A DNA stretch of 64,000 bases from Kutzneria chonburiensis (lineage in GTDB: Bacteria; Actinomycetota; Actinomycetes; Mycobacteriales; Pseudonocardiaceae): the NCBI RefSeq assembly GCF_028622115.1, contig NZ_CP097263.1:9621501-9685500 (forward strand), given 5' to 3'. A program made the translations under genes and the position numbers. A model generated the notes under the pieces. That model saw only the letters and a program-made list of their open reading frames with translations. It ran no database searches and was not told the DNA's origin. Below are positions 55,596-64,000 of this stretch, piece after piece (position 1 is the first letter of the stretch; each line of letters begins with the position of its first letter).

Positions 55596-55699
55596 GGTTC
55601 CCAGCTTCGCACGCCACCCACCCGTACGAAGGAACAACCGGCTCGTGCCGGGAAATCGCCCCTATGTTCGGTGGGGTCGTAGCCTTGGAGGAGGTCGTC

Positions 55700-57211
55700 T
55701 TGCGAAGACTGCTGCCCGTCGCGCTCAGCCTGCTCACCGTGTTCGCGCTGGTCACACCGGCGCACGCGGAGCGGGTCGTGTGGGCCCCGTGCCCCGGCGC
55801 GCTCGCCGCACTCGAATGCACCACGCTTTCCGTTCCCCTCGACCACGCGAATCCCTCGCAGGGATCGATCGCCGTGGTCGTCAGCCGTCGTCAGGCGTCC
55901 GATTCCTTGCACCGCAAGGGAGTTCTGCTGATCAATCCCGGCGGTCCCGGCGGCAGCGGGCTGTCCATGCCGCGCTACATCGCCGACCACACCCCGTTGG
56001 GGCAGTACTACGACCTGATCGGCTTCGACCCCCGTGGTGTCGGGGCCTCGACCGCCTTGCAGTGCTTGAAACCTCTTGGCCTGGCGTCGTTGGATTCCCG
56101 TCCCACGGATGACCAGTTCGCTTTGTGGGCTGCCGATGCCCGTCAGTCCGAGGACGCCTGCGCGCATGCCGGCGGTGGCATCCGGCCGTTCGTCAACACC
56201 CGGGACACCGCGTACGACATGGACCAGATCCGTGAGGCGCTCGGTGTTGCGAAGATCAATTACCTGGGCTATTCGTACGGGACCTATCTCGGGGCCGTGT
56301 ACGGCAGCCTGTTCCCCGACCGGCTGAACCTGTCCGTTCTGGACTCGGCCGTGCATCCCGAGTGGATCTGGCGGCAGCAGTTCCTGGAGCAGGCCGCGGC
56401 ATATCGGTCTGATGTGGACGCTTGGGCCACGTGGGTCGGCGACCGCAACGGCGCCTTCGGTCTCGGTGTCGGCCGGGACGCCGTGTTGGCGTCCGTCGAG
56501 CAGATCGCCGGCGCCGTGGCCAAGTCTCCGGTCGGCAAGTTCAACCGCAGCGTGCTCGACGGCACCGTCGGCGAGGGTGCCCGCTACCGTCCTTTGTGGT
56601 CGGATCTTGCCCAGGTCCTCGCTTCTGTCCGTTCCGGGGCTTCCGTCGCCGACGCCGTCGACGCCGGCCTCGCCTTGGCTCAGCGGGGCCTCTCCACCAT
56701 GAAGGCCGGCGTCTTCGACACCGTCACCTGCGAGGCCGATTGGCCTTCGGACCTTTCGACCTATTACCAGGACATGCGCGTCTACCGTTCTTCTTTCCCT
56801 TACGGCTACGGCGTTCTTCGCGCTGCCCCCACCACGTGCACCTACCGCTCCTTCTCTCCCGCCTCCCCGCCCGTTCCCTTGTCCCGCACCGGCTATCCCG
56901 TCGGCGTCGTCGTCCAGGCCGAGGGTGACACTCAGACCGCGTACGCCGGCGGTCCCGCCATGGCGCAGCGTCTCCGTGACAACCTCATCACCGTTTCCGA
57001 CGAGGGCATCCATGGCCTGTACGCCAGCAACCCCTGCGTGACCGAGAAGATCAACCGCTACTTCCTCGACGGCGTGCTCCCCGACAGCTCGTCGGTCTGT
57101 CCCGGCTCGCCCCGCCCGTCCGTCCCCGCCGACGCGGCCCCGTCTCCCACCCGCGCCGCCACCCTCGGCCAGTCCGTGACCGGCTACCTCTCCGCCCTGG
57201 CCCCCTTCTAA
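55700..57211 (+). CDS. secreted S33-family tripeptidyl aminopeptidase
   Basis: 503 residues from TTG 55700, five bases after GGAGGAGG. Signal peptide about 1-23 (LLPVALSLLTVFALVTPAHA). Alpha/beta hydrolase: oxyanion loop INPGGPGGSG, nucleophile Ser in YLGYSYGTYLGAVY (about 205), and His in DEGIHGLYASNPCV (about 447). The C-terminal TAP-like domain fits the SlpD/Tap family that removes tripeptides from extracellular proteins. The stop codon touches a family A palindrome. It probably works with other secreted proteases such as the S53 enzyme. Confidence 0.92.
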   Translation: MRRLLPVALSLLTVFALVTPAHAERVVWAPCPGALAALECTTLSVPLDHANPSQGSIAVVVSRRQASDSLHRKGVLLINPGGPGGSGLSMPRYIADHTPLGQYYDLIGFDPRGVGASTALQCLKPLGLASLDSRPTDDQFALWAADARQSEDACAHAGGGIRPFVNTRDTAYDMDQIREALGVAKINYLGYSYGTYLGAVYGSLFPDRLNLSVLDSAVHPEWIWRQQFLEQAAAYRSDVDAWATWVGDRNGAFGLGVGRDAVLASVEQIAGAVAKSPVGKFNRSVLDGTVGEGARYRPLWSDLAQVLASVRSGASVADAVDAGLALAQRGLSTMKAGVFDTVTCEADWPSDLSTYYQDMRVYRSSFPYGYGVLRAAPTTCTYRSFSPASPPVPLSRTGYPVGVVVQAEGDTQTAYAGGPAMAQRLRDNLITVSDEGIHGLYASNPCVTEKINRYFLDGVLPDSSSVCPGSPRPSVPADAAPSPTRAATLGQSVTGYLSALAPF

Positions 57212-59128: not shown

Positions 59129-59913
59129 CGCGAACCACACAGTGACATTGGCGCCGCCTCCGGCGGCGCGGGCTCGGCCCCTTTGGGGCCCTGCCTCGCC
59201 CTTGCTGGATTTTTCGAGGCCCGCATCGGCTTGTGTGGTGGGGCGCGTCGGGTGGCGGACCTCGAAAAATCCAGCAACCGTGCGAAGCAGGGGCGGGGCC
59301 GAGCCGACTTCGGGTTGGCGGCTCGAATTCGCGGTGGTGCGTGCACCCCCAGCGGATGGTCGTCGTCGGCCATCAGCGATGAGTCGTAGCGCAGCCCGAG
59401 CTCACGGATCACCGCCAGGGTGTCTTCGCTGAAGTCCCAGGACGGCGTGCGGAGCCCGACCGGCCGGGTGCCGCTCAGCCGTTCGAGCGTGTCGGCAGCG
59501 CGGAAGGCAAGCTCGCGCTCAACGCCAGGCGGCAGCGCGGTGTTGCGCTCGTGGATCCAGCCGTGAAGGGCGACTTCGTGCCCGCCCTGCACGTACGCGT
59601 CGATGTCGGCCGGATGCAGCAGCGCCGACACCGCCGGCACGAAGAACGTGGCCGGAATTCCGTGCGTGGCCAGCAGGTTCAGGATCTTCGGCACGGCAAC
59701 GCGGCTGCCGTACTCGCCCTGCGACAGCTGGCAGGGGCTGAACTCCCCGTCCCGCAGCGGAATCGTCTCGTGGTCGGAGTCGAAGGACAGCGCCACCGCC
59801 GCCCGACGGCCGTGCGGCCAGCGGTCCGGGCGCAGGCTGCGCCCTGCGCGCACGCGGCCGACTTGCTGCTGCCAGACCGTTTCCGGCCATTCCCAGGGCT
59901 GTCCGGTCACCAT
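59098..59913 (-). pseudogene. polysaccharide deacetylase, truncated at its C-terminus
   Basis: Reads from ATG 59913 (MVTGQPWEWPETVWQQQVG). Deacetylase motifs 1-3 are intact: VALSFDSDHET (catalytic Asp/metal Asp), HEVALHGWIHE (metal His pair) and GLRTPSWDFSEDT. After LRYDSSLMADDDHP (about residue 190) family similarity stops and the frame runs through the inverted-repeat element into low-complexity, Arg/Pro-rich sequence, then overlaps pnuX. Motifs 4-5, including the catalytic His of the last strand, are missing. Intact members act on peptidoglycan, chitin or purine derivatives (PuuE-like). Probably inactive. Confidence 0.65.
59156..59320. mobile_element. MITE-like inverted-repeat element
   Basis: Two related arms of about 65 bases face each other. 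The inner 18 bases are perfect: TTGCTGGATTTTTCGAGG (59202-59219) and CCTCGAAAAATCCAGCAA (59260-59277). Farther out GGCTCGGCCCC pairs with GGGGCCGAGCC (about 59171/59295) with some gaps. The 40-base loop carries no gene. It lies across the 3' part of the deacetylase gene. Exact ends and target duplication cannot be fixed. Confidence 0.65.
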
Positions 59914-60017: not shown

Positions 60018-60776
60018 GTGCTGTCACAGCAAGAACGTCTCACCTTCCTGGCCGGCGGCCTCGCCGCGCTTCGTGACGGCAGTGCGCCGACGTGGACGCA
60101 ACTGGGCCTGGCGCAGCCGAAAACCGGTCTGTACGGCGAGATTTCGCTGGCAGTGCGAGAGATGCTCGCACAGGACCGGATCACCGACTTCTTCTTCATG
60201 CACAAGCCGCCGGGCCTGCGGGTCAGGTTCGCCGCCGCGCCGGGCCGTGAGTCGTGGGTGCGGGCGGAGATCATGCGGCTGGCCCGGCGCTGGCACGAGG
60301 ACGGCCTGGTCGACGGCGTGGTGCCCGGCGTGTACGAGCCTGAGGCCTTCCTGTTCGGCGGGCCGTCGGCGATGCACCACGTGCACCGTCTGTTCACAGT
60401 GGACTCGTTGGCCTGGCTCGATCATCACGTGCGGCCGGTGCTGCCGGCGTGGCTGCTGTCCATGCGGCTGCTGCGATCGGTGTTCGGCGGCCTCGGCCTG
60501 TGTTGCCAGGCGTGGCCGCGCGTGCGGGACACCTGCGGCCGGCGGGTGACAGTCAAGGACGACGCCGTCACCATGGCCTGCGCCGAGCTGCGGGCCGTGT
60601 GGGAGACGACGCGGGCGCCGGCCGAGCCGGCGGCGCGGAGCTGGCGGGTGGCGCTGGAGCGGGTCGGCGGCGACGCGGCCGAGGCGGCGGCCTACTACGT
60701 GGTCTTCCACTGGAACCGGGGCCGGCTGAGCTCGGTCCGGCAGGCCTTGATCACCGAAGCGCTGGCGGGCGCATGA
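60018..60776 (+). CDS. lanthipeptide dehydratase, elimination domain (SpaB_C type)
   Basis: 252 residues from GTG 60018, seven bases after GGAGG. Matches the thiopeptide-type bacteriocin biosynthesis/SpaB C-terminal domain: ITDFFFMHKPPGLRVRFAAAPG near residue 55, VYEPEAFLFGGPSAMHHVHRLFTVDSLAWL (about 107-136), and HWNRGRLSSVRQALI at the C-terminus. In class I lanthipeptide and thiopeptide pathways this domain removes glutamate from glutamylated Ser/Thr to give dehydroamino acids. Here it is a separate protein, encoded before its partner and coupled to it by ATGA overlap. It is divergent from the deacetylase remnant; the promoter lies in the 104 bases before it. Confidence 0.87.
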   Translation: MLSQQERLTFLAGGLAALRDGSAPTWTQLGLAQPKTGLYGEISLAVREMLAQDRITDFFFMHKPPGLRVRFAAAPGRESWVRAEIMRLARRWHEDGLVDGVVPGVYEPEAFLFGGPSAMHHVHRLFTVDSLAWLDHHVRPVLPAWLLSMRLLRSVFGGLGLCCQAWPRVRDTCGRRVTVKDDAVTMACAELRAVWETTRAPAEPAARSWRVALERVGGDAAEAAAYYVVFHWNRGRLSSVRQALITEALAGA

Positions 60777-62893
60777 GCGTGCTGCTGCGGGTCGGTGGGC
60801 TGCCGATGCGCCTGTGGACCGCCGCCGGCAACCCGGAACTGGTCGCCGAGCTGCGGGATCTCATCGCGGAGGAGGCCGCGTACGGGGCGTACGCCCGTGC
60901 ACTGGCCGACTGGCTGGGCACGGTGATCCCGCAGTTCGAGGACCGGTCGGAGCTGCTGGCGCTGCGCCGGGACCTGCACAACGGCCGTCCGGTGTCGAGC
61001 GACCTGCCCGAGCTGGCCCGGGCCACCGGCTGGTCGACGGCCCTCGGTCTGCGCCGTGCGGCGGTGAACGAAACCCTGCTTTTGGAGCGTGAGAGGCTAC
61101 GAAAGCTGCCTTGGTCGCAGGTCGACGAGGCCGTTGCCCGGGCCGTGCCGGATCTGGTCGGTGATCTCTCGCGGCGGGTCGAAGCCGGCGAGAACTGGGG
61201 TAGCAAGCGTTTGCGACAGCGCTCGGAGTACCTACTTCGCATGATCGCCCGCGGCGCGGCCAAGCCGACGCCGCGCGGCTGGCTCGCTCACGTCGCCCAG
61301 GCCGAGGTGGCCGAGACGGCGTCGTGGCCGGTGCTCGGGTCGTGTTCGGCCCAGTGGGTCAGCAACATCAACGCCGACCGAAGACCGACCGAGCTCGACG
61401 GCGCCACGATCACCCTGAACGGGCTGAACTGGGTCGACGGGGATCGGCTGCGCTGCTGGTCCGCGAGCCGTGTGGTGGAGGTTCGGCGGACGCCGCTGGT
61501 GGACGCCATCCGCAACGTGGTCGCCGACGGCGTGCACGATGTCGACGAGCTCGTCCGCCGCCTGGCCCCTTCGTCAGCCGATGTCCTGCGCGGCTTCCTG
61601 CGACACCTCGTCGACCTTGGCGTTCTCCAGCTCTCCCGGCCGTCGCGCTCAAGTTGGACCGTTCCTCTCGACGGTTTCGTCGACGTCTACCGCCGCGTCT
61701 CCGGTGCCGTGCCCGCCGATTTCGTCGCTCGGACCACGCAATTGGCTTTGCAGGCGCTGCGCTTGGTCGACGTCTTGCCGCGGCCCGCCGATCACCCCAT
61801 CCTGTCGCTGGTCGGCTCCACGCCACGTGCTGTCACCGACCTTGTCGCCGAGTACCTCGCCGCCGACCCCGTCGAGCCCGCCCATCGTCGAAGATCGCCC
61901 GAGCTGCCCGAAGTCCTTACCCCGCAGCTGCTCGACGAGATGGGCCTGCCGCCGGCCGAGCTGCCCGAGTGGCCGTTGGACTGTTTGGTCCGCCCCATGA
62001 CCACTGGTGCCGTGCTGGAGGCCATCGCCCCCGCCGGCGTCATCGACTCTCGCTTCGCTTCCGCCTTCACCTCGCTCGGCGGCGAGCCCTCTTCGGTCCG
62101 CTCCTACCGGGAGTTCCTGTCCCACAAGGCATCCTCCGAGGGTGTGCGGCCCATCGAGATCCTCGCACCGCCCCTCGACGACCGTGCCGCCAACGCCGTC
62201 CGCCGGCCGACTTATTGTCCACTATGGACAGGCGACTCCGACTGCTCCGGCTACCTGCCGGTTGCGGGTCGATACCTCCCCTTGGACCGCATCACTTTGC
62301 GCCGCTCGGGAAGCCGCATCATCGCCGAGGACCCTTCCGGCACCGTGTTGTGGCCCATGCACCACGCTACCCGAACCCCTGTCGGCCCTTGGGGCTTGGT
62401 CGTCACCTTGCTCACCGCCTCCGCGCCACGCGGGCCGTCGATCTCCTTCGGCAACCGGATGGCCGCCTTCCCGGACCGGAACTTCTTGCCGCGGATGGAA
62501 ATAGCCGGCGGCCTTGTCCTTTCCGGTCGACACTGGCGGATCCGTGCTCCGCGGTCCTTTCGCGACCTGGTGGCGCTGGATCTTCCACGCTTTGTCTTTG
62601 CCCGCAACGGGGGCAAGCCGCGGCCGGTGGACCTGCACAGCCTGGCCGCCGTACGCGACCTGGCCCGGCTGGGCGAGGAGATCGTGGTCGAGGAGATGCT
62701 GCCGGACCCGGATCACCTGCCGCTCAAGGACGAGCGCGGTGAACCGGTCGCGGGGCAGCTGCTGGTGCGACTGCCGCACCGACGAGCCACCACCGCGTCG
62801 GCGGTGGGGAATCAGGAAGGGGACAGTGGATGGAATCCGTCTTGGCCGTCACCGAACTGGACCGTCTCATCGAGGAACTGGACACCCGGATGA
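60773..62893 (+). CDS. lanthipeptide dehydratase, glutamylation domain (Lant_dehydr_N)
   Basis: 706 residues from ATG 60773. N-terminal LanB signature: VLLRVGGLPMRLWTAAGNPELVAELRDLIAEE, then RKLPWSQVDEAVARAVPDL, YLLRMIARGAAKPTPRGWLAHVA, and a later LDRITLRRSGSRIIAEDPSGTVLWPMHH region with FGNRMAAFPDRNFLPRMEIAGGLVLSGRHWRI. It transfers glutamate from Glu-tRNA to Ser/Thr of the precursor. The split from the elimination domain resembles thiopeptide (TbtB/TbtC) and pinensin systems. Its last 64 bases overlap the precursor gene in another frame. Upstream in-frame starts would overlap the partner gene and are rejected. Confidence 0.88.
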   Translation: MSVLLRVGGLPMRLWTAAGNPELVAELRDLIAEEAAYGAYARALADWLGTVIPQFEDRSELLALRRDLHNGRPVSSDLPELARATGWSTALGLRRAAVNETLLLERERLRKLPWSQVDEAVARAVPDLVGDLSRRVEAGENWGSKRLRQRSEYLLRMIARGAAKPTPRGWLAHVAQAEVAETASWPVLGSCSAQWVSNINADRRPTELDGATITLNGLNWVDGDRLRCWSASRVVEVRRTPLVDAIRNVVADGVHDVDELVRRLAPSSADVLRGFLRHLVDLGVLQLSRPSRSSWTVPLDGFVDVYRRVSGAVPADFVARTTQLALQALRLVDVLPRPADHPILSLVGSTPRAVTDLVAEYLAADPVEPAHRRRSPELPEVLTPQLLDEMGLPPAELPEWPLDCLVRPMTTGAVLEAIAPAGVIDSRFASAFTSLGGEPSSVRSYREFLSHKASSEGVRPIEILAPPLDDRAANAVRRPTYCPLWTGDSDCSGYLPVAGRYLPLDRITLRRSGSRIIAEDPSGTVLWPMHHATRTPVGPWGLVVTLLTASAPRGPSISFGNRMAAFPDRNFLPRMEIAGGLVLSGRHWRIRAPRSFRDLVALDLPRFVFARNGGKPRPVDLHSLAAVRDLARLGEEIVVEEMLPDPDHLPLKDERGEPVAGQLLVRLPHRRATTASAVGNQEGDSGWNPSWPSPNWTVSSRNWTPG

Positions 62894-62976
62894 CCGAGGC
62901 CGCCCCGGAGGGCCGGGCGCCGGACTCGGCGATCTGCTCGCTGGTCGGCTGCGACATGAGTCACTGGCACTGCTGA
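62830..62976 (+). CDS. class I lanthipeptide precursor peptide
   Basis: 48 residues, ATG 62830 with AGGAAGGGG eight bases upstream. Leader (about 1-33) is acidic and helical: VTELDRLIEELDTRMTEAAPEG, with an LD-rich stretch in the place of the FNLD-type recognition box. Core is ICSLVGCDMSHWHC, ending at the last residue; with the preceding Ser34 it holds three Ser and three Cys, enough for three lanthionine rings. Thr is absent from the core, so only lanthionine and not methyllanthionine is expected. The start lies inside the end of the dehydratase gene. No second precursor is seen nearby. Confidence 0.87.
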   Translation: MESVLAVTELDRLIEELDTRMTEAAPEGRAPDSAICSLVGCDMSHWHC

Positions 62977-63011
62977 GTCGGACGCGAGGCACGCCGGAGC
63001 TGGGACCGTGT

Positions 63012-63794
63012 GTGCTCGCGACGCTGCTGGCCGCCTCCGCGGATGGTGACGTGCGAGCCGCGGTGAGGATGGCGGTGCCGCAGTGGCTGGATGCCGCCGT
63101 GCGGCCGATGCGAAGCGTCGGCCTGCACGGCGGCATGACCGGCACGCTGTTCGGACTGGAGCTGCTGAGCGGCCTCCATCCGCCGGTTTCCCGCCTGGCG
63201 CACCGGGTCCGAGGCTGGCTGGGGGAGCGGCGGTTCGAAGAGTTCGATCTGATCGGCGGCACGGTCGGGGCCTGCCTGGCGGGGTGTCGGCAACCGGTCT
63301 GGTTCGAAGGGGAGGACACCGGACTGGCCCATGGGGCCGCCGGTGTGCTCCTTGTGTCGCTGCAGCCGGAGTTGATTTCCTGGCTGCTGAAGCAGTCCTT
63401 TGTGGACCAACAACGGCAGGGTTGGTGCTACGGCATTCCCGGCATCGCCTGGGCGCTGTGGACGGCCGGCGCGCGGACCGAAGCCGTGCGGCTGGTACGC
63501 ATTCTGTGTCAGACCTTCGATCCCGAGCTCAATCTGTACGGTGAGCCGGCCGACCGGCTCGGGATCTGTCACGGTGCCGCGGGTGTGCTGCTCATCGCCG
63601 ACGCCTTCGCCCGCGAAGGCGTGTCGGGGGCGAAGGTGCTCAGTGATCTGATGCAGACGTACCTGGTGGAACGCCTGGATTTGGTGGCAGGGCTGGACGA
63701 CACGCTGCTCCGTGGCGGAAGTGGCGTGCTCGCGGCGTTGCTGACGGTGCGGGGTGCCGACCGGCGCTGGCTCAGATGCCTTGGCCTGCGCTGA
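63012..63794 (+). CDS. LanC-type lanthionine cyclase, short form
   Basis: About 260 residues. Gly-rich repeats of the LanC barrel: GLHGGMTGTLFGLELL, IGGTVGACL, LAHGAAGVLLVSL, WCYGIPGIAWAL, ICHGAAGVLLIA, LRGGSGVLAALL. Zinc ligands are Cys in WCYG and the Cys-His pair in CHG. Start uncertain: GTG 63012 has GGAG upstream; no ATG fits. LanC is usually about 400 residues, so the N-terminal helices are missing or reduced. It would close thioether rings between dehydroalanines and cysteines of the peptide encoded 35 bases upstream. Confidence 0.85.
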   Translation: MLATLLAASADGDVRAAVRMAVPQWLDAAVRPMRSVGLHGGMTGTLFGLELLSGLHPPVSRLAHRVRGWLGERRFEEFDLIGGTVGACLAGCRQPVWFEGEDTGLAHGAAGVLLVSLQPELISWLLKQSFVDQQRQGWCYGIPGIAWALWTAGARTEAVRLVRILCQTFDPELNLYGEPADRLGICHGAAGVLLIADAFAREGVSGAKVLSDLMQTYLVERLDLVAGLDDTLLRGGSGVLAALLTVRGADRRWLRCLGLR

Positions 63795-63797
63795 CTT

Positions 63798-64000
63798 TCA
63801 GTGCGCGGCGATGAGCTGGAGGGCGGCCAGGCCGACGAGCAGGGCAGGGCCGCGTAGCAGCTGACGGATGAGGTGGACGGGGACGGCGCCGAAGCCGGTT
63901 TCGAAGATGGCGCTGCCGCCGCCGTAGTCCATGGGCGGGCGGGTGGCCATGGCGTAGACCACGAGCACGGCACCGGCGGCGGAGATGACGACGGTGACGG
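63798..64000 (-). CDS. membrane protein, 5' part outside window
   Basis: The last 67 residues are visible: two hydrophobic segments (VTVVISAAGAVLVVYAM and LLRGPALLVGLAALQLIAAH) around RPPMDYGGGSAIFETGFGAVPVHLIRQ. No family is recognised. It converges with the cyclase gene, with three bases between stops, so it is not part of that operon; whether it relates to peptide export or immunity cannot be told. Confidence 0.6.
   Translation of the reverse strand, partial: VTVVISAAGAVLVVYAMATRPPMDYGGGSAIFETGFGAVPVHLIRQLLRGPALLVGLAALQLIAAH

Follow-up and report, generated by a model that had tools for sequence, protein, structure and literature searches.

The question raised by the stretch of DNA analyzed here is what kind of peptide would be made by a compact unit in which the two activities of a lanthipeptide dehydratase are encoded by separate genes. 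The stretch, hereafter the window, comprises 64,000 nucleotides of the 10.4 Mb genome of Kutzneria chonburiensis, a member of the family Pseudonocardiaceae (C1:9621501-9685500). On its plus strand, at 60018-63794, the genes for a lyase, a transferase, a 48-residue precursor and a LanC follow each other in one unit. We conclude that this is a genuine class I lanthipeptide locus, a distant relative of the locus for SapT with a new type of core. The marks of class I are the glutamylation and elimination domains of LanB, a LanC with its zinc ligands and a conserved Ser/Cys core. The reading as a whole, a SapT-type class I lanthipeptide locus with three consecutive lanthionine rings and a possible exporter pair, is in our opinion highly probable. 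The components of the unit are these:

60018-60776, plus strand: stand-alone glutamate-elimination enzyme (glutamyl lyase, SptBb-like), 252 residues, with Lant_dehydr_C and TIGR03891 matches
60773-62893, plus strand: stand-alone glutamylation enzyme (SptBa-like LanB N-domain), 706 residues, with a Lant_dehydr_N match
62814-62822, plus strand: ribosome site AGGAAGGGG of the precursor gene, seven bases 5' of its ATG
62830-62976, plus strand: precursor peptide, 48 residues, a conserved family with a GC content at third codon positions of 0.90
62926-62973, plus strand: predicted core SAICSLVGCDMSHWHC, residues 33-48, from the Ser/Thr-Cys spacing
62979-63794, plus strand: LanC lanthionine cyclase, given as the segment with homology to other LanC proteins, with a LANC_like match (E 1.6e-10)

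A first-pass annotation, made from the sequence of the window, had proposed that this is a minimal lanthipeptide locus in which the dehydratase is split. The reading frames and domain matches put every gene where it had placed it, and the Pfam and NCBIfam matches bear out a transferase and a lyase on separate proteins (Lant_dehydr_C at E 4.1e-14 and TIGR03891 at E 1.5e-20 for the lyase, Lant_dehydr_N at E 2.1e-10 for the transferase). The lyase gene has a GTG start preceded by a GGAGGTG ribosome site and overlaps the transferase gene by ATGA, and the transferase frame is overlapped by the precursor gene over its final 64 bases. The structural model of the lyase (predicted local distance difference test, pLDDT, 90.5) gave its best fold matches with MadB, MibB and NisB and weaker ones with PbtD and TbtD. 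A profile of 28 transferase relatives (28 of the 32 extracted LanB sequences were aligned) matched the structure 6ec7, a "lantibiotic dehydratase domain protein", at E 6.2e-16; searches of solved structures with single sequences returned one unrelated weak match for the transferase and nothing for the lyase. The transferases of the four intact copies in Kutzneria are 78-82% identical, with ratios of nonsynonymous to synonymous substitutions (dN/dS) between 0.20 and 0.29, which indicates purifying selection at the window site. The Kutzneria enzymes of the window site look short, with 252 residues for the window lyase and 706-725 for the transferases versus 764-940 for transferases elsewhere, with one exception of 668, when lengths are compared by a scripted start rule. 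In a tree of 32 transferases the window copy groups with its Kutzneria orthologs and then with a second Kutzneria locus described below (support 90/93), and the Thr-rich loci L096 and L097 group with more distant Pseudonocardiaceae loci at a modest support of 89/73.

Is the precursor a real gene? The 48-residue frame given by the first-pass annotation is conserved in homologues, with identities of 94, 92 and 83% at the same place in three other Kutzneria species, and distant relatives retain the leader and the Ser/Cys pattern. The window precursor scores E 1.6e-23 with profile A1, of which it is itself a member, and at E 0.01 this profile matches all seven Kutzneria genomes. Five of the six other genomes score below 1e-18; the sixth, G057, has a weak and unconfirmed match (E 0.003). 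In G087 the core is interrupted by a TAG, and the G019 copy sits at another site than the window cluster. We have therefore rejected a chance open reading frame, on the conservation in Kutzneria and the profile matches, and the distant homologues speak against a by-product of the overlapping lanB or lanC frames. Substitutions at the first, second and third positions of the precursor codons were 9/7/10 over the whole gene, with no clear bias. Outside the overlap with LanB they were 4/4/8 in the precursor frame, equivalent to 8/4/4 in the LanC frame, a pattern from five sequences, the broken G087 copy among them, that mildly favours the precursor frame. Against NCBIfam the 13 aligned precursors had no credible match, and a Pfam match to MYRF_ICA in four of these 13 (E 0.00026, below the cut-off of that family) was taken as a chance helix match.

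What would the core look like once modified? With about 16 residues, three Ser and three Cys, it agrees with the 14-16 residues estimated before. We have examined the core Cys of 25 precursors, that is, 23 plus the two SapT-like ones described below, counting Cys after residue 26 (after 22 in one shorter peptide) and excluding the G087 and G010 precursors. For 70 of the 73 Cys a Ser or Thr of its own is found three to five residues upstream and can be assigned without crossing. In 1000 trials with shuffled cores the mean was 24.1 paired Cys and the maximum 37; as the set includes near-duplicates, these values are descriptive and no formal test. The three unpaired Cys belong to L046, L102b and L103b. 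All predicted ring residues are Ser in 16 of the 25 precursors; the L060 precursor, for one, has Thr in ring B. Since nearly every core Cys has a local partner, the simplest reading for the window is three consecutive and separate rings, predicted as S33-C36 (SAIC), S37-C41 (SLVGC) and S44-C48 (SHWHC).

Which known system comes closest? Thiopeptides and pinensins had been named before, and they do have transferase and lyase on separate proteins by the description in PMC7268733 and PMC9011353. The comparison was incomplete, the nearest relative found by gene set, a presumably related leader type and lyase residues being SapT. Its locus spt in Streptomyces lavenduligriseus (SptA, SptBa, SptBb and SptC) combines a split LanB, a LanC and a precursor with no protease in the cluster (PMC9011353). 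In SptBb a Lys replaces the Tyr of NisB and a Leu the Arg, and the catalytic His does not align (PMC9011353); the elimination that it catalyses is net syn and yields (E)-dehydrobutyrine (PMC9011353, PMC9890492), and it is for SapT that this syn course of a lanthipeptide lyase was demonstrated (PMC9890492). The window lyase has the same replacements, Lys63 aligning with the Tyr and Leu112 with the Arg of MibB (profile alignment, with MibB and MadB as references). Among the 23 lyases aligned of 25 extracted, the Lys is conserved in 22 and the Leu in 19. The leader type and the transferase of the window are also related to those of the SapT-like loci L096 and L097, which have the gene order of the window, related enzymes (LanB 49-51% identical over the best segment), a leader of related type and cores that are hydrophobic and rich in Thr. 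These cores presumably fit the SapT pattern, and the host genus is probably Streptomyces. Leader matches of the window precursor profile also occur in L091 (E 1.8e-7) and L092 (E 6.9e-6), beside homologous enzymes. By core pattern and gene set the two matched loci would be SapT relatives.

According to PMC9011353, a search with SptA had found precursor relatives only in Streptomyces; the loci collected here thus make the group of precursors wider. In the lyase network of that paper, split-LanB lyases with these residues already form a group of some size. The window locus differs from spt in lying in Pseudonocardiaceae, with a DUF6297/ABC neighbour. The coi and olv systems of Streptomyces share class I dehydration, and coi has an extra SptBb-like lyase domain; in contrast to the window unit, their LanB is not split and a methyltransferase is present (PMC9486935).

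The cyclase shows intact active-site residues. Its WCYG and CHG motifs align with NisC and GLAHG with MadC and LANCL1, and the zinc ligands (Cys, His) and the His of GLAHG are identical in all 20 aligned rows, from 22 sequences extracted. The model had a pLDDT of 79.7, with one stretch below 50, and gave matches of moderate score with LanCL1, MadC and NisC. The start of the gene has several candidates in Kutzneria. With a GTG start at 62826 the precursor would lie entirely inside lanC in a different frame, a GTG at 63012 would remove the conserved P[DE]xGP block, and the CTG codons at 62964-62973 are possible starts. In L048, L049, L050, L057 and L059 an ATG is found 11-25 bases 3' of the precursor stop.

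Does the neighbourhood provide export, immunity or leader removal? Three further genes bear on this:

55664-57211: TAP-like alpha/beta hydrolase gene, with Abhydrolase_1 and Abhydrolase_4 matches
63798-64000, minus strand: 3' end of a DUF6297 membrane protein gene (PF19814), which extends beyond the window to about 65186
about 65183-65794 (L009:8684-9295): ATPase of the ATP-binding cassette (ABC) type after DUF6297, ABC_tran E 4.8e-30

The DUF6297 gene (PF19814, E 4.6e-71) is convergent with lanC, starting three bases beyond the lanC stop, and is followed by the ABC ATPase. That no transporter lies in view, as stated in the first-pass annotation, holds within the window, which ends there; this pair begins at its very edge. 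DUF6297 is present in four of the seven Kutzneria genomes, which share ancestry, and these are precisely the four with an intact cluster at the window site. The other three are G087, with a broken copy, and G019 and G057, with LanB only at another site. The pair is a possible exporter or immunity pair. Locus L057 has an ABC ATPase and an ABC-2-like permease directly after lanC, and L049 an ABC match in the same place. In the G087 cluster (L045) a short-chain dehydrogenase gene stands where the others have the DUF6297/ABC pair.

The TAP-like gene, for a secreted hydrolase of generic aminopeptidase type, is found some 2.8 kb 5' of the lyase gene, and by eye similar hydrolase frames precede the cluster in L042, L043 and L044. 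It is a possible leader-trimming peptidase, though we see no link between it and the pathway. Inspection by eye showed no further protease around the unit and no regulator next to it. At 59145-59360 of the window there is a partly palindromic repeat of about 175 bases; counting self-matches and inverted pieces, 46 pieces of the same genome match it. Here the repeat makes up the 3' end of a polysaccharide deacetylase frame, whose alignment in L042-L045 stops at residue 223 of 309.

How far does the locus reach? It has been proposed before to search the core peptide and the locus order in actinobacterial genomes. The precursor profile matches in at least 24 of 390 genomes of the family, and in at least 21 of them the precursor lies beside transferase and lyase, weak matches with no confirmed cluster (G057, G135 and G196) being left out; tblastn found LanC in 20 of these 21. 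G100 is the one where tblastn found no LanC, the cluster of G087 (L045, C1:1858000-1876000) is broken, with the TAG in the core and an interrupted transferase frame, and the match in G225 contains a TGA. In a sample of the class at least seven of 394 genomes match; G000 and G045 belong to the same family, and G562, G697 and G758 carry LanB on the same contig. The matches in G567 and G542 look spurious, though G542 has LanB on another contig. All these are lower bounds, because the best 17 precursor candidates were scored per genome. When 296 genomes sampled from the phylum were searched with the LanB profile at E 1e-30, with the best 2-5 candidates per genome scored, only the genome of the window matched. 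Class I clusters predicted by antiSMASH are widespread in all the Kutzneria species studied in PMC10232511, and the window locus may be counted among them; searches of the open-access literature, for the most part as listings, did not bring up the locus itself.

Some variants were met on the way. Clusters L100, L102, L103 and L104 have two precursor frames each, with cores unlike that of the window. Five loci of genus g26 (L047, L052, L054, L055 and L105) have transferase genes of the window family, and no complete lyase, precursor or LanC was found in the stretch examined, L047 beginning at a contig end. The dN/dS between the L054 and L055 transferases was 0.45, which suggests relaxed selection.

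There is also a second lyase/transferase pair in Kutzneria (G000 C1:5441849-5445263, L056:5850-9264), with orthologs in L118-L121; no precursor or LanC was detected at this locus. Its transferase is 91-94% identical between five species, with dN/dS of 0.10-0.17, lower than in the window copy. In the four lyase copies read (L118 excluded) Gly-[Ser/Thr/Ala] stands where the window has Lys-Pro. In G019 the complete version of the cluster lies in surroundings similar to those of the second locus. The second pair is a possible repurposed dehydratase.

From the sequence we infer the following route for dehydration, ring formation, cleavage and export. The ribosome would make the 48-residue precursor, whose leader (motif L..TELD.LI.ELD) would recruit the transferase to glutamylate Ser33, Ser37 and Ser44 from Glu-tRNA. 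Elimination of the glutamates by the separate lyase would leave three dehydroalanines, and LanC would join Cys36, Cys41 and Cys48 to them, forming three consecutive lanthionine rings. Some protease would then remove the leader, and the ABC/DUF6297 pair may export the peptide or protect the producer.

Several observations weigh against this picture. The core, of about 16 residues, would form its rings from Ser alone (SAICSLVGCDMSHWHC has no Thr), unlike that of SapT, which is Thr-rich and hydrophobic with methyllanthionine rings; we therefore speak of a pathway relative and not of a SapT. Four of the 23 lyases lack the Leu, with Arg in three and Lys in one. His231, in a C-terminal FHWNR motif, is conserved in 22 of 23, and this does not fit simply with a missing catalytic base, the catalytic His of SptBb being reported not to align. 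As for the exporter, G019 has a complete cluster at its other site and no DUF6297, and among 33 loci searched by tblastn DUF6297 appeared only at the four window-site ones. Finally, one of the five species with the locus (G087) has a broken copy, and the start of lanC in Kutzneria leaves the several choices given above.

Other chemistries and fates can be set against these data. Overlapping or interlocked rings, for example Cys41 to Ser33, had been suggested in the first-pass annotation, and three Ser with three Cys do permit other pairings; overlapping methyllanthionine rings are reported for the coi product (PMC9486935). The local pairs that cover 70 of 73 Cys give such rings no support, and we hold them to be unlikely here. 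A cluster that is decaying or silent and yields nothing would agree with the G087 copy, broken in precursor and transferase, and with the second locus in five of these genomes, where neither precursor nor LanC was detected; with all four window genes open and dN/dS well below 1, we consider it distinctly improbable. A thiopeptide-like pathway, with the elimination protein acting as a [4+2] cyclase, is suggested by the thiopeptide-type name of TIGR03891 and by the weaker fold matches to PbtD and TbtD. Thiopeptides are made by YcaO heterocyclisation and a [4+2] cyclase, and their pathways are not known to include LanC. The window unit, where no search aimed at YcaO was made, has a LanC that keeps its zinc ligands, and the elimination protein matches class I dehydratases best in fold. 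This explanation deserves hardly any credence; a thiopeptide [4+2] enzyme, like a fused LanB, was rejected on the domain matches, the fold matches and the LanC in the unit.

Within the class I reading, what is the peptide for? By analogy with SapT we lean, tentatively, to a secreted surface-active or developmental peptide over an antibiotic. A class I lantibiotic made by the same chemistry against competing bacteria, with the ABC/DUF6297 pair as self-immunity, is a real possibility all the same, which we would not put at even chances. It would agree with the presence of DUF6297 only with the window-site cluster in Kutzneria, with the patchy occurrence (at least 21 of 390 family genomes) and with a core that varies between genera. 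Against it, none of the 25 cores, inspected by eye with no search run, has the nisin motif SxxxCTP[GS]C, as given in PMC7268733, and the surroundings showed no regulator to the eye.

Dehydroalanine has no E/Z geometry. Because it is what the all-Ser ring residues of 16 of the 25 precursors would give, a syn-type lyase might there serve another purpose. It is conceivable, if rather doubtful for now, that the SapT machinery is an old and general actinobacterial platform with clade-specific short cores, that its syn-type lyase is not there for the stereochemistry of D-allo-L-methyllanthionine, and that the second Kutzneria pair, whose lyase lacks the key Lys, has a new Glu-tRNA-dependent role. 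The loci described here extend the SapT-related machinery to Pseudonocardiaceae, with 23 precursors, many of them with no Thr in the predicted rings. Such Thr-free cores permit a direct test of the purpose of the unusual lyase, and co-expression of the four genes offers access to short three-ring products.

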